Assembly (NCBI GenBank): GCA_007844125.1
Contig: CM017558.1
Coordinates: 22,955,915-23,019,914 of the forward strand
Source: Sinonovacula constricta
Taxonomy: Eukaryota > Mollusca > Bivalvia > Cardiida > Solecurtidae
Direction of reading: 5' to 3'
DNA: 64,000 nucleotides
Shown: in pieces, positions 6,693 through 28,929 of the stretch
How positions within the stretch are numbered: position 1 is the stretch's first letter
Layout: each line of letters starts with the position of its first letter
Notes under the pieces: model-generated
What the model was told of the DNA's origin: nothing
Databases searched by the model: none
The model's input: the letters and a program-made list of their open reading frames with translations, nothing else
Program-made: the position numbers and the translations under genes

Positions 6693-7393
6693 TCAGTTCT
6701 GTGGTCCCTGGAATTGCTGGTAGTTCTGGTAGGAATAGTAGGGGGGGTAGCCAGACGACTCCCAGTTCTGTTGTGGGGCAGCAGAACCTGCCCCTGTGGG
6801 AGGAGGTTGGGCATGACCAGACTGGGCGTGACCTGGGCCTACATATGCAGCAGGTCCAACAATTGGAGTGGTCAAAGAATGTGTATCAATGTCATGTACC
6901 GTGCCTGTAGTACTTGAGTGCAGAGATTGCCCTGTTGTGGGTGTCTTGCCCTGCTGGGCAGCAGGACTGCAGGATGCACCACTGGGACCAGTCATGGGCT
7001 CATCTTTAACCTTAGTTAATGTAGCCTCAGACTCATCATTTTTGTTATGCTTAGTATTTGAGTCTTCATTTGTCACAGAATCGTAATCCATAGTTGTCTC
7101 ATCAATGTCACTGTCGGCGCTGTGCCTCTGTTTTTGGTCATCGGAGACACTAATTAGACCCTTCTTTGAGATATGGTGCTCTGGGAGACCCTCAATGTAG
7201 AAGTCCTTCTTGTGTCGGACTTTGGACACAACACCGTTACGCCACTCTTTTGGATCCCTCTTGTGCAGGAGAATCATGTGACGCCTGATTATAGAGCTGT
7301 CTGTGAATGTCTTGGAGCATAATGAGCATGAAAATGGCTTCTCTCCACTGTGAATCCTCTCATGGCGGTCAAGCGCCTGTTTCTGACTGAAGC
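6693..7393 (-). CDS. Shared terminal zinc-finger exon with Pro/Ser/Gln-rich tail
   Basis: This terminal coding exon is entered at a TTGTTGCAG acceptor just above 7393. It completes finger CPICGKG-FSQKQALDRH, carries a last finger (CSLCSKTFTDSSIIRRH), then a segment of about 40 residues (RDPKEWRNGVVSKVRHKKDF), then a low-complexity tail of about 150 residues rich in Ser, Thr, Pro, Gly and Gln that ends YYSYQNYQQFQGPQN. Such tails are common in transcription regulators and could be an activation or condensation segment (inference). The stop is at 6693-6695. A possible minus-strand AATAAA lies at 6304-6309, giving a 3' UTR of about 390 nt. Confidence 0.92.
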
Positions 7394-7974
7394 CTGCAAC
7401 AAGCCCGTGATTGGCACATTAGAACAAAATTAACATATCCCCCTCATAGATGCAATAACCTTAAATATGACCTTGACCTTTTAGGCTGTATTTAAAAAAA
7501 GGGTATCCCAGCGCAGCTTCAATTGCATGTTAGTAAGTTTATGAAGTTTGATTAAACTCCTGTGAAAAACTGCAGCTATGACTGAGGCACTTATATTGTT
7601 CTAGCATTAGCCCTTTATAAGAAATGACCTGAAATATGACCCATTCATCTGTCCTTGACTCGTATATGCTATGTGCAACAGACCTTTCGGTGTTAGTCTT
7701 CAAGATGGCAGTGTTTTTTTAGGTAAATAATGAGAAACTATGGCTGAGATGCACAATGGGACAGACTGATTAGGCATATAAATCTCATTTTCTTTGAAGT
7801 TGTGTTTTCACTTTTAGTGTGATACAGCAGTCCAAATGTTTTTGTTTAAAAATTGGTTCAACACCTTAGCAGCAATCTCTGCTTTCCAGAAGTCTCAGCT
7901 ATTTAGCAAAGTAATCAAAGGATCTTACCATAATTATTTTTGAAGGTATTGGTGTGGTTGTGGTAGTTGTAATT

Positions 7975-8300
7975 TACTTTTCAATGTGATTCTGGTCATA
8001 CTGATGATGTCCAGCTGTCATTTAGTAAGACCCCAGACAAATGTCTGGGTAGAACCACCAGTGCACTGCAGTTAAGCTTGAAGACCTATTCACATGCATG
8101 CTCTCACCTTGGCAGAGACCCAGGCCCATAGGCTGTTTAAACCTATTTATTTATAGTCGATTGGGAAACAAGTTCTTTCAACTTAATATTAATCCCTCTT
8201 GACTGTCTACTTCCTGGGTAGGACCAGTACTGGTTAGGCTGTTAAGTAAAGGTGAAATCTTTTTCTGGAATTGAACCCATTGCTTTCTGTATATTTAGCA
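7975..8300 (-). mobile_element. SINE-B copy, reverse, in the shared intron
   Basis: Contains TCTGGTCATACTGATGATG, GACAAATGTCTGGGTAGAACC and ACCAGTGCACTGCAG, the reverse complement of the SINE-B tail and body. Boundaries approximate. Confidence 0.6.
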
Positions 8301-8659
8301 AATGCTGCATGATCTCCACTATGAGGGCTAGTCACAAAATATTTTGTAATCCTTCAGACAAATCCTAAGCAACCATGCCAAGAGATCATAGATCAGTGAT
8401 CTGTAAAAAGGTCCAAGTAGAAGTTACCAACTTTTTTTACCCTTAATATAAATACAAAATTTACAATGAGATATTTTAAAGTGGCACTGACAAAAATAGT
8501 GGTAATCCCTGCTTGGGGTGAGAAACCTGATTAATTCAGACTAAGGGACCTAACTGACACTCTCAGTCAACTGGAAAATCCAGTCACATACAGGTTTTTG
8601 CCTCGACTTAAAACTCTGCCCCTTAAGGGAAGCTGTACGATAGGTATATATTAAAATAA

Positions 8660-9140
8660 TTGTTTTTTTTTGTGTGTGTTACATCACACAGACACAATTA
8701 TGGTCATATTAGCATCATCCAGATTATTGTTTGTGGGGTTTATCATTCCACCAACAGTATTTCAGTTATCTGGAGACGGTGTCCACTTGAAGCAGATTTA
8801 GTGCTGTCTTCACTGTGTATAAATGCCATTAACAACTAGCACCATCCAGATTATTTTTCGGTGGAGAAAACCAAGACATATGCCTGGGTAGAACCACTGG
8901 CACACCACAAGTCAGCTGGAAGACCTTTCCTCATGAAATTAGAATGACAAAAAAAAAAAAGAACAGGATCAGTAATACTATATATTACTCGTAAATTGGT
9001 GTTTATCACAACAATCTTTCAGTAATCTGTAGATGGTGTTCAAGAGAAGTATTTATAATAATGCTTTCACCATGAACACCTGGCATGATACCACACCCAG
9101 TCCCACTATTCTATCACTAGGCTAGCTAGTCATGAGCAAA
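8660..9140 (-). repeat. Mosaic of SINE-B and SINE-D fragments
   Basis: SINE-B pieces (ACACAATTATGGTCATATT; CTGGGTAGAACCACTGG) alternate with SINE-D pieces (CCACCAACAGTATTTCAG at about 8750; CACCTGGCATGATACCACACC at about 9080). These look like nested or recombined insertions in the last intron of the zinc-finger locus. Confidence 0.6.
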
Positions 9141-9309
9141 AGCAAGGTAGCTACATCACAACCCTTTTATGTGACTTGTTTGTCATTGCTTTGCACTGAA
9201 GCTATACATGGAGCAGGTGGTCTAACAGTAACCTAGTGCACTGCCAGGGCTGGTCTGTACAAGTCTAATTTCTGCATGTTAAATTGTAGTAAACTCTTTA
9301 AAACTTTAC

Positions 9310-9483
9310 CTTTTCCACATATTGGACAAATGTAGTCTTTCTGCTCCTGGTGAGTTTTCATGTGAGTCCTGAGACTAGTCGACTGCTTGAATGTCTTTTT
9401 GCACACATCACACTCAAACCTGCGCACAGACTCATGCATGTACTTGTGCTCCCTCAGGGACTTCTCATAGGTGAAAGCTTTAC
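9310..9483 (-). CDS. Shared zinc-finger exon 2
   Basis: This 174-nt internal exon is phase 1 at both ends. It begins by completing the split finger left by the 5' exons (CG joined to KAFTYEKSLREH), encodes one full finger (FECDVCKKTFKQSTSLRTH), and ends inside a third finger at CPICGKG. The acceptor is TATTTTCAG just above 9483 and the donor is GTAAAGTTT below 9310. All joins restore canonical C2H2 spacing, which is strong evidence for the splice sites. No second exon of this kind was found below exon B or exon C, so it is probably used by all three. Its acceptor lies in the first unit of the tandem array at 9481-9888. Confidence 0.92.
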
Positions 9484-9888
9484 CTGAAAATACACATGTA
9501 AAATTAATGTCTAGTCTTACTGAATACAATGTCCGTTGTTTTATCTGAAAATACACATGTTCTAGTCTTATTGAAGACAATGTCCATGTTTTACCTGAAA
9601 ATACACACAAATATCTCATCTTATGAAATACAATGTCGGTTTAGTGCCTGAAAATACATTTATAAAAGGTAAGTGATCTACCTGTAAATACACATGTAAA
9701 TATCTTATTGAATACATATTCAGTATTTTACTGAAAAAACGCATGTTAATATCTTACTGAATATAATGTCTGTGTTTTACCTAAAAAATACACATGTAGA
9801 TACCTAGTCTTACTGAATACATTGTCAGTACTCTACCTAAAATATGCATGTAAATGTCTTGTTACATACATTGTCAGAATATTGCCAT
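9481..9888 (-). repeat. Eight-unit tandem array repeating the shared-exon splice acceptor
   Basis: Units of about 50 bases start near 9481, 9541, 9591, 9642, 9678, 9726, 9776 and 9831. Each contains, read on the minus strand, a version of CATGTGTATTTTCAG followed by sequence like TGTATTCAGTAAGA. The first unit supplies the acceptor of the exon at 9310-9483. All eight units keep the AG. Confidence 0.85.
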
Positions 9889-10475
9889 AATCATTATCTC
9901 AAGTAGGTTTACAATACCAGGTAGACCGGGGGCATCCCACATTTGCCGATTTGTTAGTCCCCAGCCCATCACCGTTCGAATTCAAGTCCCGGTCGGGGAC
10001 TGATCTTTCCTGTGGCAAGATATAGCTAACCTGAGGTATGCAACCAATTATTAGCCAGATGTCACCAATATAACCAGACTTGAATCGGTATGATGAACAA
10101 AAATAAAAAATAAACAGGTAGGCCTTACAGATGATAGACCATAATCACACTTTTGTGTAATTGTGAAGTGAATGGTACAGGATTGTGTTGTCAATTTTTT
10201 CAAATTTGAACACACCGACACTTTATTCATTTCTTTGTACATAAAAGTTTTAGGATTTCTCATGTCTTAGATGGCACTATGTAACTAAAATAAATGTACT
10301 GCCATGTAATTTACGAACTTTTTGCACTAACTTCGAATGAAGGCAGGAAATCCTTCATTTCATTCAGGGCTAACACATAGCTATTAAAATTTACTATAAA
10401 TAATCAATTGTGTTGACAATTATTATCAATATCCAATTTCATTGGGGACCCAACTTCATACACCATCACACTTAC

Positions 10476-11862
10476 CACAAATGTCACATTTAAATGGCTT
10501 TACACCAGCATGCACATTGGCATGCAGTAAATAGGACTGTTTCTGTGTAAAGCTTCGGCCACAAGTTGGACATAAGTAACTTTTCTTGATTCCAAGATGT
10601 TCACTTTTAATGTGACTGGTTAACACATACTTGGTACTGAATGATTTGTCACACATTTGACAGCAAAAGTTAGGTTTTACATAGTTCTCTGAATGAGTCT
10701 GCAGATGATCATCAAACACACGTTTATTTTTGTACTGACGATCACATACTTTGCATGAATAAGCAGGCTCTAGGTGCACAGTATTTACATGCCGTCTGTA
10801 ATCTTTTCTAATTCCAAACTTCTTGTCACATTGTTCGCATGTAAACCTATGCCTGTGCATACGCTTTTTATGTTCTTTTAAGTTAGACTTCTTTTTACCT
10901 AAATATTCACATTGATCACACCGAAACACAGAATTATCATCAGCCCCAATGTTACTCTCAGTTTTCACAGGTTTAGTTTTAATTTTTGTTTTGCCTTTTT
11001 TCTTTTTAGGTTTTACTTTTTCTTTGACGTTTGTATATTCATCTGTGTCTGAGGAGCTGGGGACATAATCTTTCTCTTCATCTTCGAGTTCATTATCAAC
11101 TGTATTATCTTCAAAATGCACTTCTTCATCACTACTCGACACATTATTTTCCACATGCCTTTGACTATCTGTATCAACATTTTGCTCTGACTGTGAATCA
11201 GAAGCAATTTTATCTTCCTTATGGGAAAGGGTGTACTCAAAAACCTCAATGTTTTCTAGTTTTATATCTGTGTGTTCTTGTTTGATTCCTTGTTCTTTAT
11301 TTACTGTGGAATCAGTAGATGGGGCATCTATTGACTCCTCACCTACTGACAGTCTAGAGATTGGCTCCCCGTGTCTGTTGTTAACAAGCTCTCCTGATTT
11401 GTTCACATAGTTCAATTGATGCAGATACAACTGCGCCGTTAATATGTCTTTTTCACTTGTATGAGATATACTTTCATTTCGTACACATTCCACTCGAGGA
11501 CTAGGCAGAACCGACTTGATTCTGCTTATAGAGGATCCAGGTTTTCTACCCCTTGCCACTGTGATCCGAGGTGTTGTGACTTTCACTGCACCTGAAATCC
11601 AATCAACCTTTGTAGACATTTCAGAATCGGATTCATTGACATTTTGGAGCAGTTCATTAGAAAAGGTAGATTCCAGGCATGTGTGTGCCTTCACAACGTC
11701 AGTCCACTGTCCACGGATACTGAAGGTCTGATCGGCCTGGCTTACCTCCACGCCTGTCTCATCTCGTATCCTCACCAGTGACATCGCCAACTTATCTGCA
11801 GCTATCAGCGCCACAAACTCCAGCGATAATTGGCTGGAAGTCTTCGTAAATATTGCCACCAT
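10476..11862 (-). CDS. Variable 5' exon A of zinc-finger locus: MV-IFT domain plus five C2H2 fingers
   Basis: This is the first coding exon nearest the shared 3' exons. It begins MVAIFTKTSS, with an N-terminal domain of about 70 residues (TGVEVSQAD, FSIRGQWTDVVKAH). An acidic linker follows, then a basic KPKKKKGKTKIKTK stretch that may be a nuclear localisation signal, then five C2H2 fingers (CDQCEYLGKKKSNL to HANVH). It ends in CDICG at a GTAAGT donor (10470-10475), phase 1. Joining to 9310-9483 and 6693-7393 gives an open frame of 753 residues with nine complete fingers. It lacks the upstream five-finger module of exons B and C, so it is either the ancestral shorter form or a derived loss. 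The N-terminal domain has the strand/TG/strand/helix look of a KH-like fold without a GXXG loop; that is only an impression. Confidence 0.9.
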
Positions 11863-14193
11863 ATTTAATTGTCAAAATCGATCATTCAAACGAAAGAATA
11901 AACGTGCATTGTTGCAAAAGTTTACAAATTTGTCTCATAAGTTGCTAATTGGAATTTAACTGTCAAGCTATCCAACAATAAAAAAGACGCTTACATGTAA
12001 GACAGCAAGCAATAATGCTCACTGCACGGAACACACTGCACCAAATTTAACCGTAACGCCTTCCTTATTTGTTGTATTTCCTATCATTTTTAACCGATCG
12101 GTATTTCAAAATTTCAACTTAATATCGAAATGAAAGCTGAGCCTGGAAGGCATGCATATACAATCCATAGCCTGGAGGAATCAGTAAAATTCAAAGAATA
12201 AAACCAAAAGTGAAATGACCCTGCCTGGGTTCCTACTGTGTCAGTTGTAAGTGTCAGTTGTAAGTGTCAGTTGTAAAGCATTGTAGAACAAGTCGAGGTT
12301 CTAGCACTATTGGTAGAATTAGGTTGTATTTGAGTTTAAAAACTTAATGTCATCAATATGCACTTGCAATGCCTTCAGACAATCAGGACACATAGATTGT
12401 CTCAGATTAATACAGTAAAAGAAAGAGACTACAATCATAACAAATGAAGCAACCAGTAGCAGCCGTAGCTGAGATAATAATTTTAGTTGCAAAGTTGTAA
12501 ATGTGGACTATCATTTTGTATTCTATGTGACGTGTACATAAGATGCAGCAACAAAAAATTGAACAACCAGAAGTTGACTTTTAACAGAAAGTCACACTGC
12601 AGATATGGGCTAGCAGATTTCCTAAAATTAATCTCTTGATAGTTTATACTGGCAGGATGTTTTTTCCACTTTGGTGCGAGTTTGATATTGATTTTGTACA
12701 TAACATCATTCTCGATAGCAGTGTTGTATAGAGAAAAGATCGCGATTTGCCATGACATAGTTTCTATGGTAACCATTATTGATCGTTCTCCCGTCATTGT
12801 TTTGAATGTAGTGGCTCTACTTCACCTGTTAAGCCAAACAAGTATGTGGACAAAATCAACGAGACAATAAAGCACACAGCGGCCGACTCGACAGGAGGGA
12901 GAATACTAAAGTAATTGCCTCTGGTTACTAAATTCTGCAGTACTGTACATAAAGTAAACGACAGTTCTGCATGGAGGTCATATATCCAGAGATTTTAGCA
13001 GAGTTGTGCATTGTATACTGTTTTAGTTAAAATGCTGAATACAATAGAATGTGTGATACTGTACGTACGAAATTTTACCCTCCTATCACCCTGGCAATGT
13101 GTGTATGATATATGTCTATGTGTTAAATTTGCAAGACTACGGTACAAATAGTGCACTGTGCCTCTAATGACTTGGTTGGTTCATCAAAAACTGTTCAATT
13201 ACCTAGAGATATGCGATGTTTTCAATGAGAGAGCATTTCGCAACTAATTGGCGTACTATCAAACCAACATTATGCCGACATATGGCCCAACAGTTGCTAT
13301 ACCAAGTTCATGCTGTGTGTGTGTTTTTTCTACTTTGGTATTGAGGCATTTTATAAGATGGTATGTCGACTTTGGTATGCTGAATCTGTTTTGTTGTCGA
13401 CTTTGATATGTCGCATCAGCTTTTGTATTTCGACTATGGCATGTCGCAACGCATGTCAATGTGACACTGCATTTACATTTTGTTTGTCGCGGCCTTTTTT
13501 CACTTCGTACCCGAAGCCAAATCTCTCTGCAATGGTTAATAAGGGTCGGTGCCATTATCAGTTAAGTGTATTACATACCACGTCATATGCAATTAATATT
13601 TATTTAAATTGCGCCACTATCACCCAAGCGTGCATGATATTAACTTTCATCGATGATATCTTCCACGATATTTTCCGACGCCTTCTTCAAACAATAGCTG
13701 TACATGCTCAAGTTTTCTCAGTACGTGATGGAATAATAGCAATTCTTAGCCGAAAGAGGGCTCCTGAAAATAGGTTTACCTGTCATTTTGCTATTTTGCT
13801 ACGAGAAATGGACCTTACCAAAAACACGGTTCACCAACGCCGACGGGAGGGGTGGAGGGATATTACAATAGAACTACCCTTTTTCTAAGATTTTATTACT
13901 TTCCTTAAAGAGTACCTACGTTGACAGTTATTGTCTACTCTAAAACATTAATTAGATATTGAAGAAGCTCTAAAAGATTGAACCGAGATATTCGTTTTCA
14001 TTGCACGGGGTGGTCGAACATGAGTATTTTTTTTTCCTAACGATGCGTATCGGTAATTTCCGTAAATTTCCGCCGAAAGTTGTAGTGTTACGTCACATGA
14101 AGTACACAAAAGATTGAAAGCCGTCTTGTTTGTTTACGCAAAACAAGGAATTTATCTGTAAAGTTGCGAAATTGTGTCGTTTTCAAGGCAGAT
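11863..14193. other. 5' flank of variable exon A; no further gene recognised
   Basis: Promoter DNA for exon A should start here, but no TATA box was identified with confidence. A 192-codon plus-strand frame at 13310-13888 has no recognisable domain. Around 13320-13460 there is a loose repeat of TATGTCGACTTTGGTATG. Confidence 0.5.
12238..12277. repeat. 14-bp repeat, three copies
   Basis: GTCAGTTGTAAGT repeated in the 5' flank of variable exon A. Confidence 0.75.
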
Positions 14194-14313
14194 ATGCCTG
14201 GTGCACAGTGTGTGGTGTGGGTTGCACAAATAAACGAGGAAATAACAAGGTTGCACCAATTCCCGAAAGAGCAGTCCCTTTGGGATCAGTGGATTAGAGC
14301 GATCAAATCCTGA
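14194..14313 (+). pseudogene. THAP domain remnant
   Basis: The frame from 14194 reads MPGAQCVVW, then drifts, then gives a clear THAP core, LHQFPKEQSLWDQWIRAIKS, and a stop. The segment between fits a THAP domain in another frame (GCTNKRGNNK), and after the stop a further frame gives TKDFKCFSPF. The FP and W positions match the THAP consensus, but the C2CH zinc ligands cannot be kept in one frame. I read this as a frameshifted THAP-domain copy, perhaps from a P-element-like transposon or a captured gene. It is tail-to-tail with the YQFEP gene. Confidence 0.5.
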
Positions 14314-14502
14314 CCAAGGACTTCAAATGTTTTTCTCCTTTTACGTGTGTTATTATTGTAATAATTTAAAATGTTACTAGACAGAAAATACAAACATTTG
14401 TGAAGTTAAATTCTTTTTACTAGCAGAAAATAAACAACAGCAACAATAAATATATATGTACAATAGTATAACTCGGGCACAGTCAAAATGATTAAAACTT
14501 CT

Positions 14503-15508
14503 TCATAGCCTCTGTACTCCTGCGAAGGATAGCACAGCACAGAAAGAAAGAACAACTTCTTTTCCCAGGAAATCCCAACACCACCTGTCCAACTGTCCAT
14601 ATGCAACATACCTCCTTTGCCTGAAACAAGAAGGCATAATTTATAAGTTAGGAAATCTGAATCTTGTTTAGATATGTAGAACCTTGAGGCACTTTCTATG
14701 GAAAAAAAATGCATTAAGATTTCTGGATTCTATAGAATTCTATTTCCGTCACACATAAAACTTTTCTATGAGCTTATTCTGCTTAAATTTATGTTATTTT
14801 AGAACTTGCAGTGTAGTAAAAAGGCACATTTGAAACAATTACTTGCTGACTAGTTTGCCTTCTTTTTTATTATGGTTATTTCTCACATGTTTCCTTGTGG
14901 ATATTTTTCACACAACATTTAAACTTTGATAAGAAGTTACTGCGATGAAATGCTTTAAAACAAATACTGATATTACGCTTAGTATTTTCGAGAATGCATA
15001 GACGATTCGTTATACCAATATATTTTAAAGAGTCATTCCAGGTAAAGATGAGATTTAACGTAGTTTAACTGCATGTAAGCTCGTATAAATACCGGTCTGA
15101 ATACGAGTTCAAACTAAACCTTTAACCCGTGCCAGTAAACGAAGATGTGCATCACCCCCATGTATATTGTGTTGAATGTGAGCGAACACATAATCATTCG
15201 CTGAAAACGATTTCTAATAAACGTTTTCTATACAAGTATGTAGATTTTCCACACACACGAATAAAAAAGAACCGTAAACAAAATACAATTTACCAGTCCA
15301 AATGGAGTGTCCTGTCAACGTTGTTTTCCGGAACTTCTGGGTCCGAGTCTCTCTTAATTTTCCCGTCCCGCAGTCTTACAACCGGTTCAAACTGATAAGG
15401 CAAAGCCCCAGCATCACTGTCGCTTTCGTCGTTTGAGCCATGGTCCGTCACAGAACCCGAAGAACTGTACAATTCTAAATGACTCGTCTCATTTTCGCAG
15501 CTCGCCAT
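14503..15508 (-). CDS. Two-exon YQFEP / P2X7-C-like protein, possibly missing its middle exon
   Basis: Exon 1 (15294-15508) starts at MASCENETS, chosen over the Met at 15568 because its context is ACAAACATGG. It carries an acidic Ser/Asp stretch, then PYQFEPVVRLR and ends LHLDW at a GTAAAT donor, phase 2. Exon 2 (14503-14620) follows a CTTGTTTCAG acceptor; it joins in phase and reads QRRYVAYGQLDRWCWDFLGK before a stop, for about 110 residues in total. YQFEP near the N-terminus and a YxxAYxQxxRWCWxxLGK block at the C-terminus are typical of the invertebrate proteins named P2X purinoceptor 7-like, after the cytoplasmic C-terminal domain of P2X7. Family members normally have a WCxCGxC...CC cysteine segment between these blocks; I could not find it in the intron. 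After the CAV motif, residues like the expected end (YPSQEYRGYEEV) appear in another frame, which suggests a deletion. It may be a decaying copy. Confidence 0.5.
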
Positions 15509-15677
15509 GTTTGTTTTGTAAAAACATGTACTTCTTGTGACGTCACTTACAATTCTTCTTTCGGGCATTTCCGGATGTGCGTCCGTAACTTTCCGTAAAG
15601 GTGCGGTTTATACACATTTCATACAACACTTACACAGGTAAATCGACGGAAATGTTTAGGCTAGTCCAATCTACTTT

Positions 15678-15700
15678 GGGGGGGGGGGGGGGGGGGGGGG
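15678..15700 (+). repeat. Run of 23 G
   Basis: Uninterrupted G run just upstream of the YQFEP gene start. It could form G-quadruplexes, or mark an assembly weak point. Confidence 0.9.
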
Positions 15701-15756
15701 CTTAACAGTAAGGAATAGACCCTGGGTAAAATAACGGCTCTGATATCAGATTCAAC

Positions 15757-15948
15757 AAGCTGTAAATATACTTTGTGTTTCTGTGCAGACTTGTCCCATT
15801 CACAAAGCCGTAAATTAACTTGGTGTTTCTGCGCAGACTTGTCCCATTTTCCAAGCCGTAAATGTACTAAGTGTTTCTGCGCAGACTTGTCCCATTCACC
15901 AAGCCGTAAATGTACTAAGTGTTTCTGCGCAGACTTGCCTCATAAGGG
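15757..15948. repeat. 48-bp tandem repeat, about four copies
   Basis: Units begin AAGCCGTAAATGTACTAAGT at 15757, 15805, 15853 and 15901 and contain TTTCTGCGCAGACTTGTCCC. The last two units are almost identical. Confidence 0.9.
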
Positions 15949-17033
15949 GTAAACTTGACTGATCTTCAAACCTCTGATATAGGTTGTTGTCAATGTGATA
16001 TCGATCGGAGCAGTTTGGATGTTTTGTTTTATTATAAGCAGCTGTCGATTGCATAACTACATGTCATTAATTATTATTAACTAAACACCATGTGTCGAAG
16101 AAATAAAGGAAGAAAAAGGCGATGGAACCCAGGCCCAAACCTGGTCTTTTGCTATCAAGACAGATGTTCTACTGACTGAGGTTGCTTAAATGTATCATTA
16201 ATTAGCTTTTTATTTTACCCAGTAAACAAGATTAGAACAGAGGGCAATAAGGACATTTGACATGTGTGATTTTATAGCACATACCGTAATTTGAATATTA
16301 TAACCCCACTTGGAGTATATCCCGCTAAGCCTTTTTACATTACTTTTTTTAAAATTTTGGTAATAATATATATGCTGCAGCAGTATACACCCCGCAACAT
16401 ATTTGAAAAAAAAAAACACTTAAGTTTAAGGAAGCCATCTCCTCAGGTCGAATACATGTCAACTGCATTCCTGTATCACACCAAGTCAGCGTGACCTGTG
16501 TTATGTAACATCAATTCGTGGATCAATAATCCCCCTCGCTTAGCTGTACAGCAACAACCGACTCTTTGTTGGTCACACAGACATGAAATTTCTTTGTTTG
16601 GCTGACAGATACGAAAGATAAGAGGCGAGTTACTTTAAGTGCCTTTGAGTGCATCAAGTAATTATAAACAGGTCACCTCTAGTTTTATTTAGCCCAACTC
16701 GTCGTTGATTACTCCCTGTACATTTGCTATCACCTGAAGTTGTCATGACGACGTGTAATGACAGGCTGACTTGGGACTGTGTAGACAGCGAGACGCGCCG
16801 GAAGTATCTTTACAAGTAGCTTCTCATACAACGTTTCACTGCCGAATATCGATCCAAATATCGATCAATATCTTGAGACGCTTCAAAAAATGTCGTTAAC
16901 AAGAACAACAATTAGACTTTAGAAAGTTCCTTTATGAAAGTTGACAGACACGAATGTAATGAATACCTTCGTGAATACTGTTGCAAATGTTTGACAATGG
17001 TGGAAATATTAGATTTCATTGCAATAAATGTCA

Positions 17034-17038
<5 letters not shown>

Positions 17039-17113
<75 letters not shown>
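17039..17113. repeat. (TA)n microsatellite
   Basis: About 37 TA pairs without interruption in the intron below variable exon B. Confidence 0.95.
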
Positions 17114-17115
<2 letters not shown>

Positions 17116-17530
17116 CATCAAAACAAATTTATACATATATATGAGCATCAATGTAGCATCTGCCTAGATGTCATCATTGGTTTCATGCTAGACTTGATTC
17201 CCCCCTCCCCACTTGGAAACCAAATGCTGCCCACTTTACATACCTTTTTTCTTATTTTAGGGAGGTTAAAATAATTATTGTTATCTACTTTCGATTTTAT
17301 TTCAATCAATCTACAAAACAAAGATTATCTTGTCAGTTTGTAAATGTTTGGGAACTGAAAAGTAACCCATTAACTTGATACCACTGTAAACATTCTTCAT
17401 AACATGTTTCTGGTCTACATTCACATCAAATTTTAAAAAGCCAATTTTGGGGCAAGTATTGGGGGAAAAAAATCCAAAACATTTCGAAGACTAAGATGTT
17501 AAGTCTGACTTAAGTTAAGATCGTACATAC

Positions 17531-19997
17531 CACAGACATCACATACGCATGGCTTGATCCCAGCATGGACGTGTGCATGTTCTTTGTAATGACTCTTGCT
17601 CTTCATGACGCGGTTGCATATAGGACACTGGTAAGAGACCCTCATGCCCAGATGTTCAACCTTAACATGCGTGGCTAAAGCTGGCTTAGAGGTAAAAGAC
17701 TTCTCACAAAGTGTACATGCATAGGTCACCGGAACAAAATCTTTATTGTGTGTCCGAAGGTGTCTCTCTAATGTCTTCTGTAACTTATATGCCTTGTTAC
17801 AAATGGGGCAAAAATTATCAGCCTTGCCATGTGTACACTTCATATGAACTGTCAGACTTCTTTTAACACCAAATTTCTTTCCACATATTTCACAAGCATA
17901 GTTTCGGCAATGATTTTGTCGTATGTGTCTTTGCAGATTTGACTTCTTCAGTCCGATATAACTGCAAAAATCACAGGAGAATATTGGTTTAACTTCATCA
18001 CCAGTTTCATTCCCATTTAATGTCAAACTTGAGGTTTTATTCTCTTGATCTTTCTTCAGAATTATGGTACTCTTTGAAGCATCATTCTGAATTGATGAAT
18101 CATTGTTGTCTACAACATTTATTTCACATTTGGCTTCAGCATTGCTGACATTGCTATCAACACTTTTTGACATTTTGTCCATTTCATTTCCACCTTCTGT
18201 ATCAGTGCCAGAAGAATCCATATCTACAGTAGCTCCTAGTAACCATGATTTTGTAGTTATCCTTTTGAGAAACTTCATTGCAGTCTTTGTCTTTTGTTCA
18301 GATGTAACAATGTGTTCACTTTCTTCTACTTCTCTGGGAATTGGAACATTTTTATAGGCTATGTCTGTCTTTGAGGGGCCAGCAATGTTCAAATCTGAAA
18401 GACTCTTTGGAACAGCTGAACTGTCATCTTTCAATACATCATCCCTCTCACCAAATGGCCCTGACTCTCCATTTCTAATATGAGCTCTGACATGAGCATC
18501 GTATCGACTCTTTGCAGAGAAAGATTTGTTACAGATTTTGCAAACGAACAAATTTTTGAAACCCAAGTGTTCTTCACTCAAGTGCCGGAGCAATTCTTCC
18601 TTTCCTGCAAAAGATTCTGGGCACAACTGGCATGAGTAATCACACTTTGTAGAATCATTGTTGTGTTTTTCCACATGCTTTATATATTGCTTTTTTGTTT
18701 TGTACTTCTTCTTGCAAATCTTGCATTCAAAGGTCTGAAACATATGAGCAGTTTGCATGTGCTTTTTTACACGACTTACGAAACAAAATGTTCTCTCACA
18801 CATGTCACATTTCAGCTCTGGACTATCCTTATGTTTTTCATGTATATGTTTATAAAGTGTTTTACGACTACTTGCTTTAAAGTCACATAGTTCACACTTT
18901 TGTTCTTCTACTTTCTTTTTCTTTGTTGTCTTTGCTTTCTTTTCATGCAATACGGATTCATCACTTGAACACTCACTACTATTTGAGCTTGGTATGTTTT
19001 CAGGCACATAAACAGAATCATCCTTATCATAATATTCTGACAAAACTTTCAAATCACTAGGGACATCTTTCACTTCTGCATCTTTTCTTTGACTCTGTGT
19101 TTTCAAAGTTGTATACTTATCAGCTTTCATGTCGCATCGTATATCTTTCAAAATAACTCTCAGCTCTTTGTCTGCCGAAATCAGCTGATTTGTGTCATCT
19201 TCAACCGTCATGCATAATGTTGTCATGCTTTCCGAGTCATCTGATGTATGACCAGTGTCTGTCTCCTTGGTAACAACAACTTCAAAGTCATCATTTACAA
19301 CGTTTGAGGCATGTGTGGCATTAACGGAATTTGTTTTTAGAATGCCTGTTGTCAAAGACTTTTCATCGGAGTCTCTGTATTCCCTGTTTGCCTGTTCACT
19401 AACTTCTACCATATCATTGCTCTGATTTTTGTTATTAATAACAGTTGTGTATTTGTTCACTTTTGATGTCCCAGATGTGCTGTGTACATGTCTATCTACA
19501 TCTACTGGCGTAACATCTGGCTCTTTCTTTATAAACACAACTGGCTCTCCTATCTTATTTGCAGTAACCATTGAAGAAACAGTTTCTGTACAATTTGTGC
19601 TTGATTTTGAAAGACTGTTTCTATTTTTACCTCTCCTGGATTCTCTGGCTTCAGGTGGAATGTAACCTTGCTGGGTTGTCTGCCCATCCAAGGAGGCCAT
19701 TTGAGCTCGTCCATTCCCAGCATTTGCATCTGGCGTAGGCACTTTTTCATCGCTTTGTTTATTCTGGATCTTGATAAATGCTTCTTTCTCATACAGATCC
19801 TCTATCAATGTGCGAGTTTTAACTAGTGCATCCCATGTTCCATTGACTCGATATAACCCTTTGTCGACAATTTCCTCAAATGTCACACCGGTGTAGGAAC
19901 CTATCTGCTCAAAGTGTGTCTTCTGTTTACTGGGATGGATAACCGATAAAACATCAGCGGAAATCAAACTGCTGGCGTCGGTGAAAATGACCACCAT
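17531..19997 (-). CDS. Variable 5' exon B of zinc-finger locus: MV-IFT domain plus ten C2H2 fingers
   Basis: This exon codes 822 residues and ends after base 1 of a Gly codon at a GTATGT donor (17525-17530). The start at MVVIFTDASS is chosen by homology with the two sister exons; an in-frame Met at 20039 would add 14 unconserved residues. The domain order matches exon C: N-terminal domain, acidic linker with the conserved DKDDSVYVPENIPSS, a five-finger module (CELCDFKASS to HVRAH), a linker, and a second five-finger module (CDFCSYIG to HAHVH). The second module matches the single module of exon A finger for finger, and the first module follows the same pattern, so the module was duplicated internally. 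The final CDVCG half-finger needs a downstream exon. Joining to 9310-9483 keeps phase and gives about 1113 residues. The role is unknown beyond nucleic-acid binding. Confidence 0.85.
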
Positions 19998-20563
19998 ATT
20001 TAAATTTATCGAGATAAAAGCATGAAAAACAGCGATCAAATCAACCTTTAAACGCCGTTAAAACATGAAAACCATGTCATCTGTTTGTGATGCTTTAGGT
20101 GCGCGGATGTCGCCTCCAAAACAAAAGAGCAAATGTAAGCTAGCCGACATTCGAGCAGCCAACACTTACTTTTCCGGACACACTGAAAACAATCGAGACC
20201 CAAGCCATTGTACACAACCAATTTTTCACAACTTGTTTCAGTTAAATCTCAGCAACAAATGTTATTGTTTGGGATATTTACATTTCTAAATAGCCACGCA
20301 AGAAATATAATATTATAATAAAAACATCAGCAAGAAACACCAACATATTTGTATATTTGACAATGCAGTCATCCATCCTTCCATCAGTTAATTAATTTAT
20401 CCACTGCAAACAATCCAGCCATCAATCCATCCATACCCCCACCCACCAATTTATAATACTTATCAATCTCCACAACAGATACCCAAATATTCTCCTTTGG
20501 GGTGCCCGTGGCATAGCAGATTAGTCACCAATTTCTCACTTCTTTGACTGCTTAGCCTCTCAC

Positions 20564-21126
20564 AGCAATAGCTCATTTGGTAGAGCATCAGCTTGCAGAT
20601 CGGGAGGTCACAGGTTCAAACCCCAGCCGGGTCAAACCAAAGACTTTAAAGATGGAAGTAGTAGCTTTCCTCCTGACACTCTGGGCTAAGAGGATAGCAC
20701 TACGCCTGACTTGTTGGTGTCAGTATAATGGACCTGCCTGGTTCAGTCCCCGAGTACCTCATAAGTGCCCCTGTGCGATAATGATAAAAAGGGATGGATT
20801 AGGGATTAGCCGGCATTTTTGCCGATACTGCGCAGCGACTATTCTATCATTACAGCACAGGGGCACTTATGAGGTGCCCAGGGACTGAACCCGGCCGGTC
20901 CATTATACTGACACCGACGAGTCAGGCGTAATGCTGTCCCCTTAGCCCCGAGCATTAGGAGGGAAGCCACTACTACCAACTTTAAAGTCTTTGGTAAGAT
21001 CCGGCCGGGGTTCGAACCCACAACCTCCCGATTCACAAGCCGACGCTCTACCACCTGAGCTATTGCGACCGGTCGATAATGATAGAAATGTTGCTGCACA
21101 GTACTGGCAAAAATGCAAGCAAAATC
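20564..21126 (+). mobile_element. SINE-A2, interrupted by SINE-A3
   Basis: tRNA-like head at 20564-20640. It is flanked by CCTCTCAC (20556-20563, 21127-21134), the target-site duplication in SINE-B. The body resumes after 21084. Confidence 0.85.
20787..21073 (-). mobile_element. SINE-A3 inserted in SINE-A2, opposite strand
   Basis: A full-length copy with the tRNA-like head at its right end (near 20995-21073). The direct repeat CGATAATGATA at 20776-20786 and 21074-21084 is exact. It forms an inverted pair with SINE-A2. Confidence 0.9.
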
Positions 21127-21660
21127 CCTCTCACACCATGGGTTCTAGCCCTATTCAGGAATAGGTCTTTATGTGGGAAGGTCTTCTAGCTAACCTTTCT
21201 TTTGCCGGTGGTTCTACCCAGACATTCATGTCAGGTCTTCCTCAACCAAATCCGCAGGACATCGCTATAATGATTAAAATTGGTTGCTGCGTTGTATCTC
21301 AAAAACAATACATTCCCCTTTATTGATACAGAGTGCTTTGTTGGTTTTTTATTAATGTAAAGACAGCAGACCATTGTCTTTTGTTTTTCTGGTTTCTGAG
21401 AATTATAATAAATCGTACAGGTACAATATTGTTTCTGGTTAAGACAATTTTTAATACAAACTTTAATGGTAAGATCATGTAAGTTATGAAATACTTTGAC
21501 CTAAACTGACTTTTCAACATTTACTTATATTTTTAGAGGTATCAGAAATTCCAATTAAATACTAATTTCATAATTGACGGAAATAAAATGCAACCAATTT
21601 GTTAATAGATCAGTTAGTATTCTATGATCAAAGTTACAAAGGATACAGTTAATTGACAAT

Positions 21661-22622
21661 AAAAGATGTTATCAAATAGTTTGCCAATATCTAATACATA
21701 TAACAATATGTCATCCCTGTTCTGGTAAATTCATCCAGAACTGCTGCATAAACTTATATTTTAGTTTAAGTAAAGGATCTTGCCTCAATTGTTTAACAGT
21801 ACAAATGAAATTTTAGCTTATTACCAAATCTACAAATAAGCACGATGGGAATTTCAGCTAAAAGTGAAAATCAACATCAGAGCTGATTTGTGATGATATA
21901 TTATCTCAAAAGTGGTCACTTGGTTTTCTCAGTTCAAGATCAAGCCAACTGTGCAGCATGGTTCGGACAGGAAATACATTAAGGGTAGTATCCGACAATT
22001 TTAATAAAAGATTTTCTTCTCAAATAACCAAAAAATTCATTGTTACTTGAAAAGGTCCTGCAAAATGCAGTTCATTGATACCATAGATCTATGTGAACAG
22101 TAAGGCATAAATACCAACTCGTCACTGCAAAGTGGTGTTTTCTATCTCAGCCACGCTGCAGCGATAGATATTTATAAACTAAGAAAACCATGTGACAACT
22201 AATTTTTGTGATCACATTATATCGTCATCCGGGTAATTCGCTCTGACTTCGATATCTATTTTTAGCAAAAATGAGTAATGTACTTATTTCAAGATTTGGA
22301 AAGAATAGCATTTAAAGTTGTTTTTGCAATTTTGTACTGTTTGATAACACAAAAGCATTTTCACTTAGACTAAAGTATGAAATTATGCAGATATTATGCC
22401 TAAACTCCCCAAAGTAGTTGTAATATATTTGTTATACATATTTGATCTAGGCAATCTGTCAGATTCCATCATTAAATTGTCATGGTAAGTGGGGTGTTAT
22501 GCTACACTGTTTGTTGCAAAGGGCACCAATAAACAGCATTAATCCCGATCTTTTCTGGTATCAATAATTTATTTGGTTGCATGGGGAAAAAAATGGTCCA
22601 AAGAGTCTGATATTACCTTAAA
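21661..22622. mobile_element. Family T element, older host copy
   Basis: Begins GTTATCAAATAGTTTGCCAATA and ends AAGAGTCTGATATTACCTTAA. It is interrupted at 21983-22471 by a second family T copy. Orthologous by duplication to 29347-30246. Confidence 0.65.
21983..22471. mobile_element. Family T element inserted in a family T element
   Basis: Ends GGGTAGTATCCGACA and CTGTCAGATTCCATCA, with TTAA on both sides (21979-21982, 22472-22475). The host sequence resumes exactly across the TTAA. The duplicated partner locus (near 30110) lacks the insertion. Confidence 0.78.
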
Positions 22623-24773
22623 CAACAGCATTGTTGAACAACATTGTGCTGTTGATTTCAGGTAAATCTTGGTGCCCAAAAACATACTTGGAAAAAATGA
22701 TGCTGCAAGTATACACCATATCGAAATGAAGCCCATATATACAGTATTCCCTGGATGGCAGTAATCATTCCCTGTTCTTATCAGCTAGACATGATGTGAT
22801 GTAATATAGCTTGTTCTAACCGTGTGAGTTTAATTAATACCAGGTGCAACTGTTATAGAAAAGTCTATAGAATATACAGAATTTGACCTAGAGATAAATG
22901 AGAGGATCTAACCAGGACTTTGTTGTGGGGGTCTATGTATACATTTGATTAAAAATACACCAAAGTTCAGAAATGTATTGGAGACGTGCTGGAGCTCAAT
23001 GAAATTTGCATATGGGGAAAGATTGTTTTGCGGACTTCCAGAATCTTGGTAAAATATGGGTCATAATTCGGTACATGGAGTTTTATTTTTTATTTTGTTT
23101 TATTCATAATTCGGTACATGGAGTTTTATTTTTATTTTGTTTTATTTTAATTTATTTATCTATAAAAAAGAAAACTGCAGGATATCACATTTAATTAAGT
23201 TTAAAAAAATTTGTCACAATTTCTTTTAAATTTGTTTTTAATCGTTTGCATCGCCTTTGATGCTTTGCATCAATGGTTTTTTTGTTATATGCTATAATAC
23301 AACTCTATAAACTATTCCAACTTTTCATATGTAAAGGGACTTTACTCTTTTAAAAAACAACATTTTTACTTCCCTTGTGGGTAAGTATTTGGTATTTAGT
23401 TACTTCAGAAATCTTAAGATTTTTCCACTTTTAAAACTTTTGAAAAACACTGAAAGACTGCAGCATGTGCATGGAAACTTATTGATTGATATAAGAATAT
23501 TGAGTTGAGCACTTTTTTAAAAAAAATAAGCATATTAAAACTTTTCTTTTTTTGTATTAAGTGTATGAAAAAACCTTCCCACAAGGGGGATAACTAAAAC
23601 ATTTCTTTCCCTTCTAAGATGGGGAGTAATACTACTCTTAGCATTTTCAAATCTGGCTAGCTGAGTTCCTCAAAGGTGGTATCCATCAATTGTCCTATAT
23701 CACATACTAGGGTTGTCGTTGTTTCAATTGATATCAATATATTGTCAATATTTTTTTGCCAATCATTTATCAATGCACACTTTATAGTAGATATATTTGG
23801 TGAGAAAAAAAGAGTCAAAAGTAATTTTTATGGCACGCTATACACAATGAAGACAGAACTATACCTGCTTCAAGTGGACATCATCGCCAGATAACAGAAA
23901 TACTGTTGATAGGACATTAACACCAATAAACAAACAATTGTAGCATATAATAGAGTGATGTCTCCACATGATCTAAGAGAGATTTTTTTTTATTTCCTCC
24001 ACAAACAAGTAAACAATGACAGCATTTTTATATGGTAGGTGAGGTTATTTGTTTTTGCTAATTCTGAAGACCAGTATTGGGTCATGTTTCCACTCACAAA
24101 AAGTACGGGTTTTTTTACCATTTCAAGGAGAAAATATCCAACAAATCAAAGAACAACAAAAAATGATAACTTTTACCCTTGGTAAAAAAAACACGACATA
24201 CCTGACTACTATATAAAATATAAAGGAGTTGTTTGAACAAAATATTTTCATGTTTTTGTTTTATTTGATACATATATAATACCCTATGAGTTTTCCCAGT
24301 TTTGTTGCAAACAACATGACAAATCCCAAGTCTGGGGCTCAGGGCTTGTTCCCAAGATGGTAAGAAAAAACTCTGTAACCTAAAATATATGTTCAATGAC
24401 ACAACCGCACCTATTTACAAAATATGCCACAAGATATGCACATTTTGCACAATCAAACTATGCATGGCAAAATGACTAGGGAATTTAAGTTTTGTGAATA
24501 TTGATTATGCATTTAAGCAGACTAATAGGCCTATGATCAGAACCTTCAAAATGCCCGTCATAAATCTTGTTCAACTGCAATTCAATAGTAATTTGTTTGG
24601 CAATGAAAAGGTTATTTTTTCTTCTGTAGTCATTGGGTCATTTACAGAAAACTGACCAAAAGTACCTGCCCATTTTCTTTGGCTACCGGTAAGCATCTGT
24701 CAACTTGTTTTTTAAAAAGCAAGTTGAAAAAAAAGAGTTATATTTGTACCATACCACAAATGTATTAGGTTAT

Positions 24774-25295
24774 ACAAATGCTTTGTTTTAAGGTCCTATC
24801 TGTAGGTTGGTTCAATGAATGGACCTTGAACTTTAAATCAATTTATTTTAATAGACATATTATAAAAACTGAATTCCATATAAATTTTGAATATTTCGGT
24901 TAACATGTAATTTCACAGGCTTGTTTTAAAAAAACCCTTAGTTAATATAATTATGTTCATTTTGCTTTGATCAACCGTCCTGTTAATTTCATATGAAGGT
25001 TTCGTTTTATTGACAGGCTGTATGGAGTTTAACATCAATATTTCTCGTCTATGAAATGCAACTTCAAAGAGATTGTGGGCTTGTATCAAAGCTGTGCTGT
25101 TTTATCAGCTCTGCTATGAAATCCATTGATCTGCATGGTAGTGTGCTCGTGACATTTTAGCTGGGTGAAATTGTTTGATGATGCAAACATTCAGAAATAT
25201 GATACAAGAGATAAAACTAGGAAGTAATTTATAAATCATGGAACATGTATGGAACAAATGCTTTGTTTTAAGGTCCTATCTGTAGGTTGGTTCAA
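24774..25295. repeat. Identical 42-bp direct repeats flanking 438 bp
   Basis: The stretch beginning ACAAATGCTTTGTTTTAAGG is identical at 24774-24815 and 25254-25295. The DNA between shows no gene. Confidence 0.85.
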
Positions 25296-25846
25296 AGTCC
25301 AACCACCCCACCCTACACACAAAAAAAAGTAAAGAAAATCTTGTACCACTGATAATCAAAGCTAACTTTATGCCTGGTGAACTTTTGAACTTTTATTTCT
25401 TCTTTTTCATTGGTCTTCATGCAGTTTTTATGCTAAAATCTACTGTGTTTGTATCTTGGTAATATTGAAAATGTAAATTTTGGGACGGTCCTTTCAAAAA
25501 AATATGAAATGTGTCAGTGTTGCATTTGTCCAGATAAGGATTGGTCTGTTGGGTACATGCTAGCTGTGCATGCTGAAGTTCGATACTAACATGCTGACAC
25601 TTTACATACATTTAATGGGGGTGGGGTGTTGACTTTGTTCCAATTAATTTAGAAAATAAAGATGAACCTGTAGGTTTGTAAATGTTTGGGAATTAAAAAT
25701 GAAGTGACCCATTAACTTGATGCCACTGTAAACATTCTTCATGATACATTTCTGGTCTACTTTCATATGAACCTTTAGGAATGCCTATTCAACTTTTAAG
25801 TATTAATTAACAATGTTTAAGACTAAAATGTTAAGATCGTACATAC

Positions 25847-28358
25847 CACAGACATCACATACGTATCTCTTGATTCCAGCATGGACCTGTGCGTGTTGTT
25901 TGTAATGGGCCTTGCTCTTCATGACGCGGTCGCACATAGGGCACTGGTAAGAGACCCTTATGCCCAGATGTTCAACCTTAACATGCCGGGTTAGAGCTGG
26001 CTTACCGCTAAAAGACTTCTCACAAAGTGTACATGCGTAGGTCACCGGAACAAAATCTTCCTTGTGTGTCAGAAGGTGTTTATCTAAAGTTGTCTGTAAC
26101 TTATATGCCTTGTTACAAATGTGGCAAAATTTATCAGCTTTGCCATGGGTACACTTCATATGAATTGCCAGACTTCTTTTAACACCAAATTTCTTTCCAC
26201 ATATTTCACAAGCAAAGTTTCTGCAGTGATTTTCTCGGATGTGTCTTCGCAGATTTTTCTTCTTCAATCCGACATAACTGCAAAAATCGCATGAGAATAC
26301 TGGTTTAACATTGTCACCAGTTTCATTCCCATTTACTATACAAGTTGAGGTTTTATTCTCTTCATCATTCTTCATAATTATGGTAATCTCTGAAGCATCA
26401 TTCTGAATTGATAAATCATTGTTGTCTACAACATTTATTTCACATTTGGCTTCTGTTTTTACAATATCACTGAAATTAGTGTCAACACATTTTGACATTT
26501 TGTCCATTTCATTTTCACCTTCAGTATCAGCGCCAGAAGAATCCACATCTGCAGTAAGTCCAAGTAAAGTAGATTTTGTGGTTAACCTTTTGAGAAACTT
26601 CATTGCAGTCTTAGTCTTTTTTTCAGAAGTGACAATGTGTTCATTTTCTTCAACTACTTTGGGAACTGGAACATTTTTAAAGGCTATGTCTGTCTTTGAG
26701 GGGCCAGCAATGTTCAAATCTGAAAGACTCTTTGGAACAGCTGAACTGTCATCTTTCAATACATCATCCCTCTCACCAAATGGCCAAGACTCTCCATTTC
26801 TAATATGAGCTTTGACATGAGCATTGTATCGACTCTTTGCAGAGAAAGATTTGTCACATATTTTGCAAGCAAACAAATTTTTGAAACCCAAGTGTTCTTC
26901 ACTCATATGTTTAAGTAAGTCTTCCTTTTCTGCAAAAAAATCAGGGCACAACTGGCAAGGGTAATCACAATTTGTAGAATCATTGTTGTGTTTTCCCACA
27001 TGCTTTATATATTGCTTTTTTGTTTTGTAAGTCTTCTTGCAAATCTTACATTCAAACTTCTGAAACATATGAACAGTTTGCATATGCTTTTTTACACGAC
27101 TTACGAAACAAAATGTTCTCTCACACATGTCACATTTCAGCTCTGGACTATCCTTATGTTTTTCATGTATATGTTTATAAAGTGAATTATGACTTCCTAC
27201 TTTAAAATCGCATAGTTCACATTTGTGTTCTTCTACTTTCTTTTTCTTTGTTCTCTTTGCATTCTTTTCTTGTAATGCGGATTCATCACTTGAACACTCA
27301 CTACTATCTGAGCTTGGTATGTTTTCAGGCACATAAACAGAATCATCCTTATCATAATATTCTGACAAAATTTTTAAATCACTAGGGACATCTTTTAACT
27401 TTACATCTTTTCTTTGGCTCTGTGTTTTCAAAGTTGTATACTTATCAGCTTTCATGTCGCATCGTATATCTTTCAAAATAACTCTCAGCTCTTTGTCTGC
27501 CGAAATCAGCTGATTTGTGTCATCTTCAACCGTCATGCATAATGTTGTCATGTTTTCCGAGGCATCTGATGTATGACCAGTGTCTGTCTCCATAGTAACA
27601 TCATCTGCAAAGTCTTCATTTGAGGCATTAGATAAAAAATGTGAGGCATTTGTGACTTTCGTTTTTAAAATTACTGTTGTCAAAGATTTTTCATTGGATT
27701 TTTGGTCTTCCCTGTCTGCCCCTACTTCTACCACAGCATTGCTTTGATTTTGGACCTTATTACACTGTTTTTGTTCATCAATAACCGTTTTGTATTTGTT
27801 CACTTTTGATGTCCCAGATGTGTTGTGTACAAGTCTATCTACATCAAATGGCGTAACATCTGGCTCTTTCTTTATAAACACATCTCGCTCTCCTATCTTA
27901 TTTGTAATAACTACTGACGAGGTAGTTTTAGTAAAACTTGTGTTAGACTTTGAAAAACTGTTGGTATTTTTACCCGTGTTCAATTCGTAATCTCTCCTAA
28001 TATCTCTGGCTTCAGGTTGATTGTACCCTGGCTGGGTTGTCTGCCCATCAAAGGAGGCCAATTGAGTTTGGCCTTCCCGTGCATTTGCATCTGGCGTAGG
28101 CACTTCTTCACCACTTTGTTTATTCTGGATCTTGGCAAATGCTTCTTTCTCATACAGATCCTCTATCAATGTGCGAGTTTTAACTAGTGCATCCCAAGTT
28201 CCATTGACTCGATATAACCCTTTGTCGACAATTTCCTCAAATGTCACACCGGTGTAGGAACCTATCTGCTCAAAGTGTGTCTTCTGTTTACTGGGATGGA
28301 TAACCGCTAAAACATCAGCAGAAATCACACTGCTAGTCTCTGTAAAAATGACCACCAT
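25847..28358 (-). CDS. Variable 5' exon C of zinc-finger locus: MV-IFT domain plus ten C2H2 fingers
   Basis: This exon codes 837 residues and ends after the first base of a Gly codon. The start is the Met of MVVIFTETSS at 28358 rather than the upstream Met at 28379, because the other two variable exons share that start and the upstream residues differ. The order is: N-terminal domain of about 75 residues containing TGVTFEE and YRVNGTWDALVK; a long acidic, Ser/Thr-rich linker; five C2H2 fingers; a second linker; five more fingers (CDFCSYVG to the HAQVH finger). The exon breaks inside finger 11 at CDVCG, at a GTATGT donor (25841-25846). No half-finger exon that completes it was found before the shared exon at 9310-9483, which fits in phase and would give a protein of about 1128 residues. 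Read through without splicing, it would stop 13 residues later. It is probably a nuclear DNA- or RNA-binding regulator; targets are unknown. It is a close paralogue of the 17531-19997 exon. Confidence 0.85.
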
Positions 28359-28929
28359 ATTTACAGCGATAGAAAACAATCTTTAAAACCCATTTAAACT
28401 TAAACCCATGTCGTTTGTGATGTTAAATATGCACGTATTTTGCCTCCTAAACAAAAGAGCAAACGTGAGCTAGTCGACATTCAAGAAGCCAACACTTATT
28501 TTCTGGACACACTGCACAAAATTGTTAAGAAAAAACACGAAACCGATATAGTAAATTTCTTAGACTCAAATGTTATCGTTTAGGGCATTTACTTCTCTGA
28601 AGAGATTTGCAAAAAATATGGAATTATGATAATCAATTAGTAAAAATCAGCCCGGTATTTGTAGGTTTATTTGTTACTGTTGTAATTGATCAATCAATCA
28701 CTCCCACCCCAAGCCGTACAGTCATTAAGGTTATTGTTACTTTAATAAAAATCAATATTTACAAATCAAATAAAAGCGAACTTTCTGGTATCACATATAT
28801 ATCTCAATTTGCTGGGGATACTGATTAACAGATTGATTGGTGGGTGTATGGATGAACTGATAGATACTGATAGATGGATGAATGGGTGGATATCTGGATG
28901 GATTCATTAATGTCAATAATGAATTGTCT

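Follow-up and report, generated by a model that had tools for sequence, protein, structure and literature searches.

The stretch of DNA considered here, called the window, comprises 64,000 nucleotides (nt) of contig CM017558.1 (positions 22,955,915 to 23,019,914, assembly GCA_007844125.1) of the bivalve mollusc Sinonovacula constricta. It contains on its minus strand a locus for C2H2 zinc-finger proteins, which consists of three long exons A, B and C, each opened by a start codon, and of two further exons, e2 and e3, located downstream of all three (Table 1). These five exons probably belong to a single gene, in which A, B and C would serve as tandem variable first exons, each of them being spliced to the same e2-e3 pair.

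Organization of the Locus

The start ATGs of A, B and C (11862, 19997 and 28358) open exons of 1387, 2467 and 2512 nt, all with a length of 1 modulo 3, whose last bases (10476, 17531 and 25847) fall after the first base of a glycine codon (TGT G) inside a zinc finger, at a donor reading GTAAGT in A and GTATGT in both B and C. Exon e2 (174 nt) stands directly 3' of TTTTCAG and adds G-K-A-F-x5-L-x2-H-x3-H in frame, and e3 (701 nt including the stop) finishes the second split finger in a similar way, the frame being continued from A, B and C alike. The predicted proteins comprise 753 amino acids (aa) and 9 fingers for A, 1113 aa and 14 fingers for B, and 1128 aa and 14 fingers for C. Left unspliced, the frames reach a stop after 6 (A), 10 (B) and 14 (C) codons, counting from the split glycine. 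Because the predicted splice junction cuts a finger in half, each product would need e2 to be complete. The identical phase of A, B and C does not amount to three independent coincidences, however, since the exons are homologous. A preliminary description of the window had recognized three exons on one strand with a common domain, breaking at C-x-x-C-G after the first base of the glycine codon at a GT donor, and had proposed that arrays of five (A) or ten (B, C) fingers are joined to a four-finger common end by an e2 whose phase suits all three; the exons have now been located base for base, with the finger counts, the phase and the continuous frame as described, and the joining of B and C to e2, together with its control by the choice of promoter, is a prediction.

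The fingers, of the C-x2-C-x12-H-x3-5-H type, match PF00096 (8 stretches, E 1.2e-35), which places them in the C2H2 class. The common C-terminal fingers have YKSE, QTST, QQAR and DSIR as predicted contact residues, and the ending of the e3 tail is resembled in two related proteins, P0001 and P0006.

Table 1. Coordinates of the exons and associated sequence features within the 64-kb window (position 1 is the first letter of the window).
Feature	Position	Strand	Remarks
Exon A	10476..11862	-	ATG, KH-like domain, charged linker, five complete C2H2 fingers, sixth one cut after its first half; CDICG^GTAAGT, phase 1
Exon B	17531..19997	-	ATG, KH-like domain, 5 + 5 C2H2 fingers in two arrays, eleventh finger cut after its first half; CDVCG^GTATGT, phase 1
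Exon C	25847..28358	-	Layout as in B, protein 80% identical to B; CDVCG^GTATGT, phase 1
Common exon e2	9310..9483	-	Half finger finished (GKAFTYEKSLREHKYMH), a complete finger and half of the following one; 3' end CPICGKG^GTAAAG
Common exon e3	6693..7393	-	Next finger finished, last finger, low-complexity tail ending ...GYPPYYSYQNYQQFQGPQN, then stop
AATAAA past e3, in likely 3' untranslated region (UTR)	6304..6309	-
KH-like N-terminal domain of A	11608..11862	-	Homologous parts: B 19743-19997, C 28104-28358
Upstream block of B common with C	19998..20386	-	Candidate promoter/5' UTR; B/C alignment
Upstream block of C common with B	28359..28700	-	B/C alignment
Intron start after B	17293..17530	-	Aligns with C 25631-25846; similarity stops here, no e2 copy next
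Decayed ~50-nt tandem units like the e2 acceptor	9484..9880	-	..ACATGTGTATTTTCAGGTAAA..; tandem repeats, base-by-base reading of both copies
AATAAA 249 nt past donor A	10222..10227	-
AATAAA 230 nt past donor B	17296..17301	-
ATTAAA 231 nt past donor C	25611..25616	-

A decayed tandem array, whose units hold acceptor-like ...TTTTCAGGTAAA... stretches, terminates with the e2 acceptor as its last unit. Out of the 13 sites reading [CT]AGGTA[AG] on the minus strand of the 64 kb, 5 are located within the array, the real acceptor included. Some units read TTTTCAG immediately followed by GTAAA, i.e., an acceptor joined to a donor-like sequence, and the second copy of the locus, described below, has a different version of the array.

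With respect to the N-terminal domain, AlphaFold2 modelling from 21 sequences predicted a beta-alpha-alpha-beta-beta-alpha fold (mean predicted local distance difference test score of 73), a topology similar to that of the type I KH domains. The best Foldseek matches against the PDB, none of them below 1e-3, were mostly KH domains (hnRNP K KH3 with E 2.2e-3, MEX-3C KH2 and PCBP KH1), together with PNPase. In contrast to canonical RNA-binding KH domains, the domain of A lacks the GXXG loop that connects the first two helices, residues 12-36 being devoid of any glycine, and gave no Pfam KH match. It is accordingly designated as KH-like from its modelled fold, and RNA binding by this domain is not claimed.

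A Single Completing Exon

Scanning every minus-strand AG of the window for the phase-1 second half of a C2H2 finger yielded four loose matches and one strict match, which is e2. The same strand gave one loose and no strict match over 20 kb past the left edge of the window, and 60 kb around the second copy gave seven loose matches, the strict pattern being satisfied by e2 alone. A pattern scan of the minus strand of the window detected no C2H2 finger outside the five exons, and no end proper to B or C was found in the window by tblastn of e2+e3, by the half-finger scan or by the finger-pattern scan. The earlier claim of a single completing half-finger exon, without any equivalent between A, B and C, thus holds over 64 kb plus 20 kb, and these scans of the intervals between the first exons revealed none of the separate, unrecognized exons to which B and C might otherwise be spliced.

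Genome-wide searches covered an assembly of 1.22 Gb, with 150 of 1514 candidates scored for e2, 55 of 1396 for exon B and 92 of 1499 for exon A. The e2 peptide gave at least 126 matches with E <= 0.001, and perfect identity in two places, namely here and in the inverted copy. Among the matches listed, the four that follow in order of E-value (61%, 66%, 48% and 48% identity) are located inside unbroken finger-coding frames of 807, 689, 843 and 847 aa, without any intron at that point, the identity of shorter partial matches being 58% at most. Inspection of five of the latter, located in short frames and with 44-58% identity over 36-45 aa, showed them to be parts of other finger-coding stretches; a half finger following an AG was present in none of the five, although a very diverged exon would escape such a search. 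With exon B as query, B and C were retrieved from both copies of the locus, all other matches showing at most 40% identity, and exon A retrieved itself and its copy, followed by matches of at most 50%. Within the window, the 20 kb beside it and the candidates scored, a single common set of downstream exons fits the three compatible donors.

Origin and Conservation of Exons B and C

Exons B and C align with 83.5% identity in 3154 columns; the alignment starts about 340-390 bp ahead of the ATG and stops about 220-240 bp beyond the donor, the similarity farther upstream (up to 2.3-3 kb) being limited to weaker patches. None of 300 shuffles equalled their upstream similarity. No remnants of e2 or e3 were found after B or C. 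Since e2 is absent from the duplicated unit, which as far as it aligns comprises the upstream DNA, the exon and some 220 nt of intron, B and C probably lacked an end of their own from the beginning.

Comparison of B with C gave dN 0.093, dS 0.185 and dN/dS 0.505, the silent and replacement rates differing with p = 2e-6. The ratio amounts to 0.30 for fingers 1-5 (p 0.001), 0.44 for fingers 6-10 (p 0.013) and 0.32 for the N-terminal domain (p 0.06). Compared to A, both exons possess an extra second array of five fingers. The second array of B is 41% identical to the array of A and the first one 29%, the two arrays of B being 32% identical to each other; the KH-like domains of A and B share 28% identity. 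The half finger KPxxCDxCG matches that of A at 6/9 residues in B and 5/9 in C. Judged by these sequence features, both exons have been conserved as coding sequence and are not debris.

A Second Copy of the Locus

An inverted copy of the locus (L009-L014) occurs on the same contig at C4:8630001-8690000, the window itself corresponding to C4:22955915-23019914, with the order A-B-C-e2-e3 kept. No stops interrupt A, B, C or e2 in this copy, and GT or AG is retained at 6/6 splice sites. The substitutions between copies amount to 2/1387 in A, 5/2467 in B, 30/2512 in C, 0/174 in e2 and 10/701 in e3; codon counts cover A, B, C and e2, e3 being compared as plain substitutions. In the spacer between A and B, 170 of 4364 positions are substituted, and most of the non-coding stretches compared differ by 1.4-7.1%, with 0/500 for the 500 bases upstream of B. 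As an observation apart, a stretch of about 1 kb preceding exon B (19998-20999) shows zero substitutions between the copies, vs 2.8-5.6% at 21400-22600.

Other near-identical pairs emerged from the same searches, inverted on C1, C2 and C12 and in the same direction on C1. Because such pairs also occur on C1, C2 and C12, uncollapsed haplotypes in the assembly are suggested, and the second copy is likely the other haplotype retained in the assembly, a real duplication being a possible alternative.

Relatives and Age of the Split-Finger Junction

Relatives of exon A were retrieved from the bivalves Mercenaria, Mactra, Mya, Dreissena and Mytilus, from unionids, scallops and oysters among the same class, as well as from gastropods and from the chiton Liolophura. 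Members of this molluscan KH-like/C2H2 family, such as P0001 (Mercenaria, annotated as zinc finger protein 652-like) and P0154 (Dreissena), resemble A by their N-terminal domain, their 5 + 4 fingers, the ending of the tail and the break of exon 1. A tree of the finger arrays, built with 34 chosen relatives less P0011 and P0215, which were dropped for want of the anchor motif, grouped A with the heterodonts Mercenaria, Mactra, Mya and Dreissena with moderate support (86/96, not starred), which points to a heterodont bivalve as the likely source of the locus. The B and C arrays form branches too long to be placed in this tree.

Among the retrieved open reading frames (ORFs) shorter than 510 aa that contain the N-terminal domain, 6/7 (P0046, P0048, P0051, P0053, P0060 and P0065), which group with heterodont bivalves, stop shortly past CD[VI]CG. 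The two residues next to this motif, K, M or R and then Y or F, are those obtained by translating GTAAGT, GTATGT or GTAGGT. In the remaining ORF, P0039, the frame continues through complete fingers, and the full-length relatives P0001-P0003 read through a complete finger at the junction. Since six ORFs break at the same codon, the junction appears to be old, common to the relatives of A and kept by B and C.

A double array like that of B and C was noticed only in P0013 (Ruditapes), smaller additions of two fingers being present in P0225, P0231, P0030 and P0038; in all five the extra fingers are located in the first part of the protein. Four pairs among 81 proteins share at least 88% identity over at least 80 aa, all of them along almost their full length. 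A search with the end of P0001 gave further family members and no isoform pair among the best 120 of 352 matches.

In addition, a paralogue of the family (L006, C4:22948376-22950916, plus strand) lies about 5-7.5 kb to the left of the window, tail to tail with the locus. It consists of an unbroken frame of 847 aa with an N-domain-like start, 9 fingers and a tail, and its finger region has no intron.

Interpretation and Alternatives

Because each of A, B and C has an ATG, they may be considered as first exons and, as first exons, those that intervene can be skipped in splicing. In a one-gene organization, each would likely be transcribed from its own start, under a separate promoter, and its donor would join e2, over an intron of 8.0 kb for B and of 16.4 kb for C. 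The broken finger would be finished by e2, giving rise to three proteins with a common four-finger end and tail. Fixed C-terminal fingers associated with different N-terminal arrays of 5 or 10 fingers would confer different binding specificities, presumably towards DNA or RNA. We lean slightly towards a broader proposal, namely that a mollusc has independently evolved a cluster of the protocadherin/UGT1 style for a nucleic-acid-binding protein, in which the choice of promoter swaps finger arrays via a junction in mid-finger, and in which the acceptor array could help to capture donors located 1, 8 and 16 kb off.

Several observations weigh against a shared end. Unlike what is predicted for the locus, the retrieved relatives are single proteins: no pair with a common end and a different start was encountered among the 81 of 237 retrieved proteins compared pairwise. 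No same-species product of A was seen among the best 120 of 227 matches (best identity 63%), and neither a same-species product nor an evident orthologue of B occurred among 20 matches (best 36%). Since the end of P0013 is only about 46% like that of the Mercenaria protein P0001, it is probably its own, which would make P0013 a B-like gene with its own end in another clam.

As regards the separate promoters proposed, B and C have some 340-390 bp of upstream sequence in common. No upstream motif common to the starts of A, B and C was found, the 400 nt preceding A giving p 0.67 against B and 0.28 against C in shuffles. The observed/expected ratio of CpG in the 300 bp before the ATG rises to 1.18 (A), 1.06 (B) and 1.13 (C) vs 0.52 overall, which is weak promoter evidence because 5-8% of all windows reach such values. 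In the 500 nt preceding each start, acceptor-like AGs number 2 (A), 1 (B) and 3 (C), the background density being 2.6 per kb, and a 5' UTR exon may accordingly precede any of the three. The conservation between copies must also be read with care: because the silent sites of A (1/288) and B (3/500) hardly differ, in comparison with 11/503 in C, the low divergence of A and B is not purely due to selection on the protein, and this calm may partly reflect a recent common ancestry.

The most serious of these points concerns the hexamers of the poly(A) type located past the three donors, because of which truncated forms may be produced, alone or beside spliced ones. According to a first alternative, which is unlikely, B and C are separate genes ending in their own introns, with polyadenylation about 250 nt beyond the donor, their proteins being terminated by a half finger and a short read-through tail. 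The second copy possesses hexamers at almost identical distances (249 nt for A, with another at 33, and 231 nt for both B and C), and a hexamer at a similar offset, within 20 nt, in three random stretches is expected in 0.4% of draws, but this test was posed post hoc, and B and C are homologous. Moreover, exon A has an AATAAA past its donor as well, although its relatives continue through a complete finger. The read-through tails of B and C, distinguished by an indel, have a non-coding appearance, and the half finger and donor have been retained even though the second array of B is only 41% identical to that of A.

Less probable still is a combination of both fates, in which the choice of promoter would be coupled to a splice-or-polyadenylate switch at each first exon, yielding long forms (14 or 9 fingers) and short ones. 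The presence of hexamers alongside the evidence for splicing, with donors intact in both copies, agrees with such a switch, but no documented short form was encountered for any relative and the six truncated ORFs are more simply explained as genomic reads into the intron. A third reading, in which B and C would have arisen by partial duplication of exon 1 and be decaying without any function, is very improbable, since the very long branches of their arrays in the tree are outweighed by open frames of 2.5 kb, lengths kept in frame, a dN/dS of 0.505 (p = 2e-6) and the absence of stops in either copy.

Other Features of the Window

Beside the locus, the plus strand contains a frame of 522 aa for an ankyrin-repeat protein (61692-63257). 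A 21-bp minisatellite of about 61 copies, with several frames open, is located at 55635-56918, and a 48-bp tandem repeat of about 4 copies at 15750-15937. Repeated frames reading VExxLxxREVxGSNPxR occur at 3175-3423, 20556-20888 and 20839-21144, where ARAGORN detected no tRNA; these frames recall the B box of a tRNA-derived short interspersed nuclear element.

Comparison with Known Systems and Significance

In the clustered protocadherins (PMC3338513) and in UGT1 and GCNT2 (PMC1885805) of vertebrates, the transcription start picks the first exon, whose donor joins the common exons. The locus resembles all three systems by its tandem, large and similar first exons in the same frame, its common downstream exons and the lack of common-exon copies in between; A, B and C, taken as first exons on account of their ATGs, represent such a tandem series of large homologous exons. 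The likeness with GCNT2 extends to the number of exons, three variable and two constant ones being described in human, mouse and rat (PMC1885805), as for A-B-C and e2-e3. The abstract of that article terms the UGT1/GCNT2 organization vertebrate-specific. The locus differs from these systems in that its protein, which combines a KH-like domain with C2H2 fingers, is unrelated, in that the junction falls inside a zinc finger so that neither part is complete alone, and in that upstream sequence is common only to B and C, its promoters and splicing being predicted.

Another parallel is offered by lola of Drosophila, in which, according to PMC1947980, common 5' BTB exons are joined to variable 3' exons, most of them with fingers. 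Both are zinc-finger loci in which variable and common exons are joined (in the present case, by prediction) to give several products of different finger content. The present locus is the mirror image of lola, with varying 5' arrays and common 3' fingers, and does not follow the lola type. No zinc-finger locus of this layout was found among the articles listed in searches of the open-access literature, which does not prove its absence from print. The layout is known from the protocadherins, UGT1 and GCNT2, and the gene type is new.

PMC1885805 and PMC3338513 present clusters of variable first exons in genes for enzymes and for proteins of the cell surface; should the organization proposed here be correct, the same logic would operate in a zinc-finger protein. 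One locus would then deliver factors that differ in their N-terminal binding array but have the same C-terminal fingers, which would offer a natural test of the share of each half of the finger array in specificity. It would also imply that a new transcription-factor-like isoform can arise by the duplication of nothing more than upstream DNA and a first exon.

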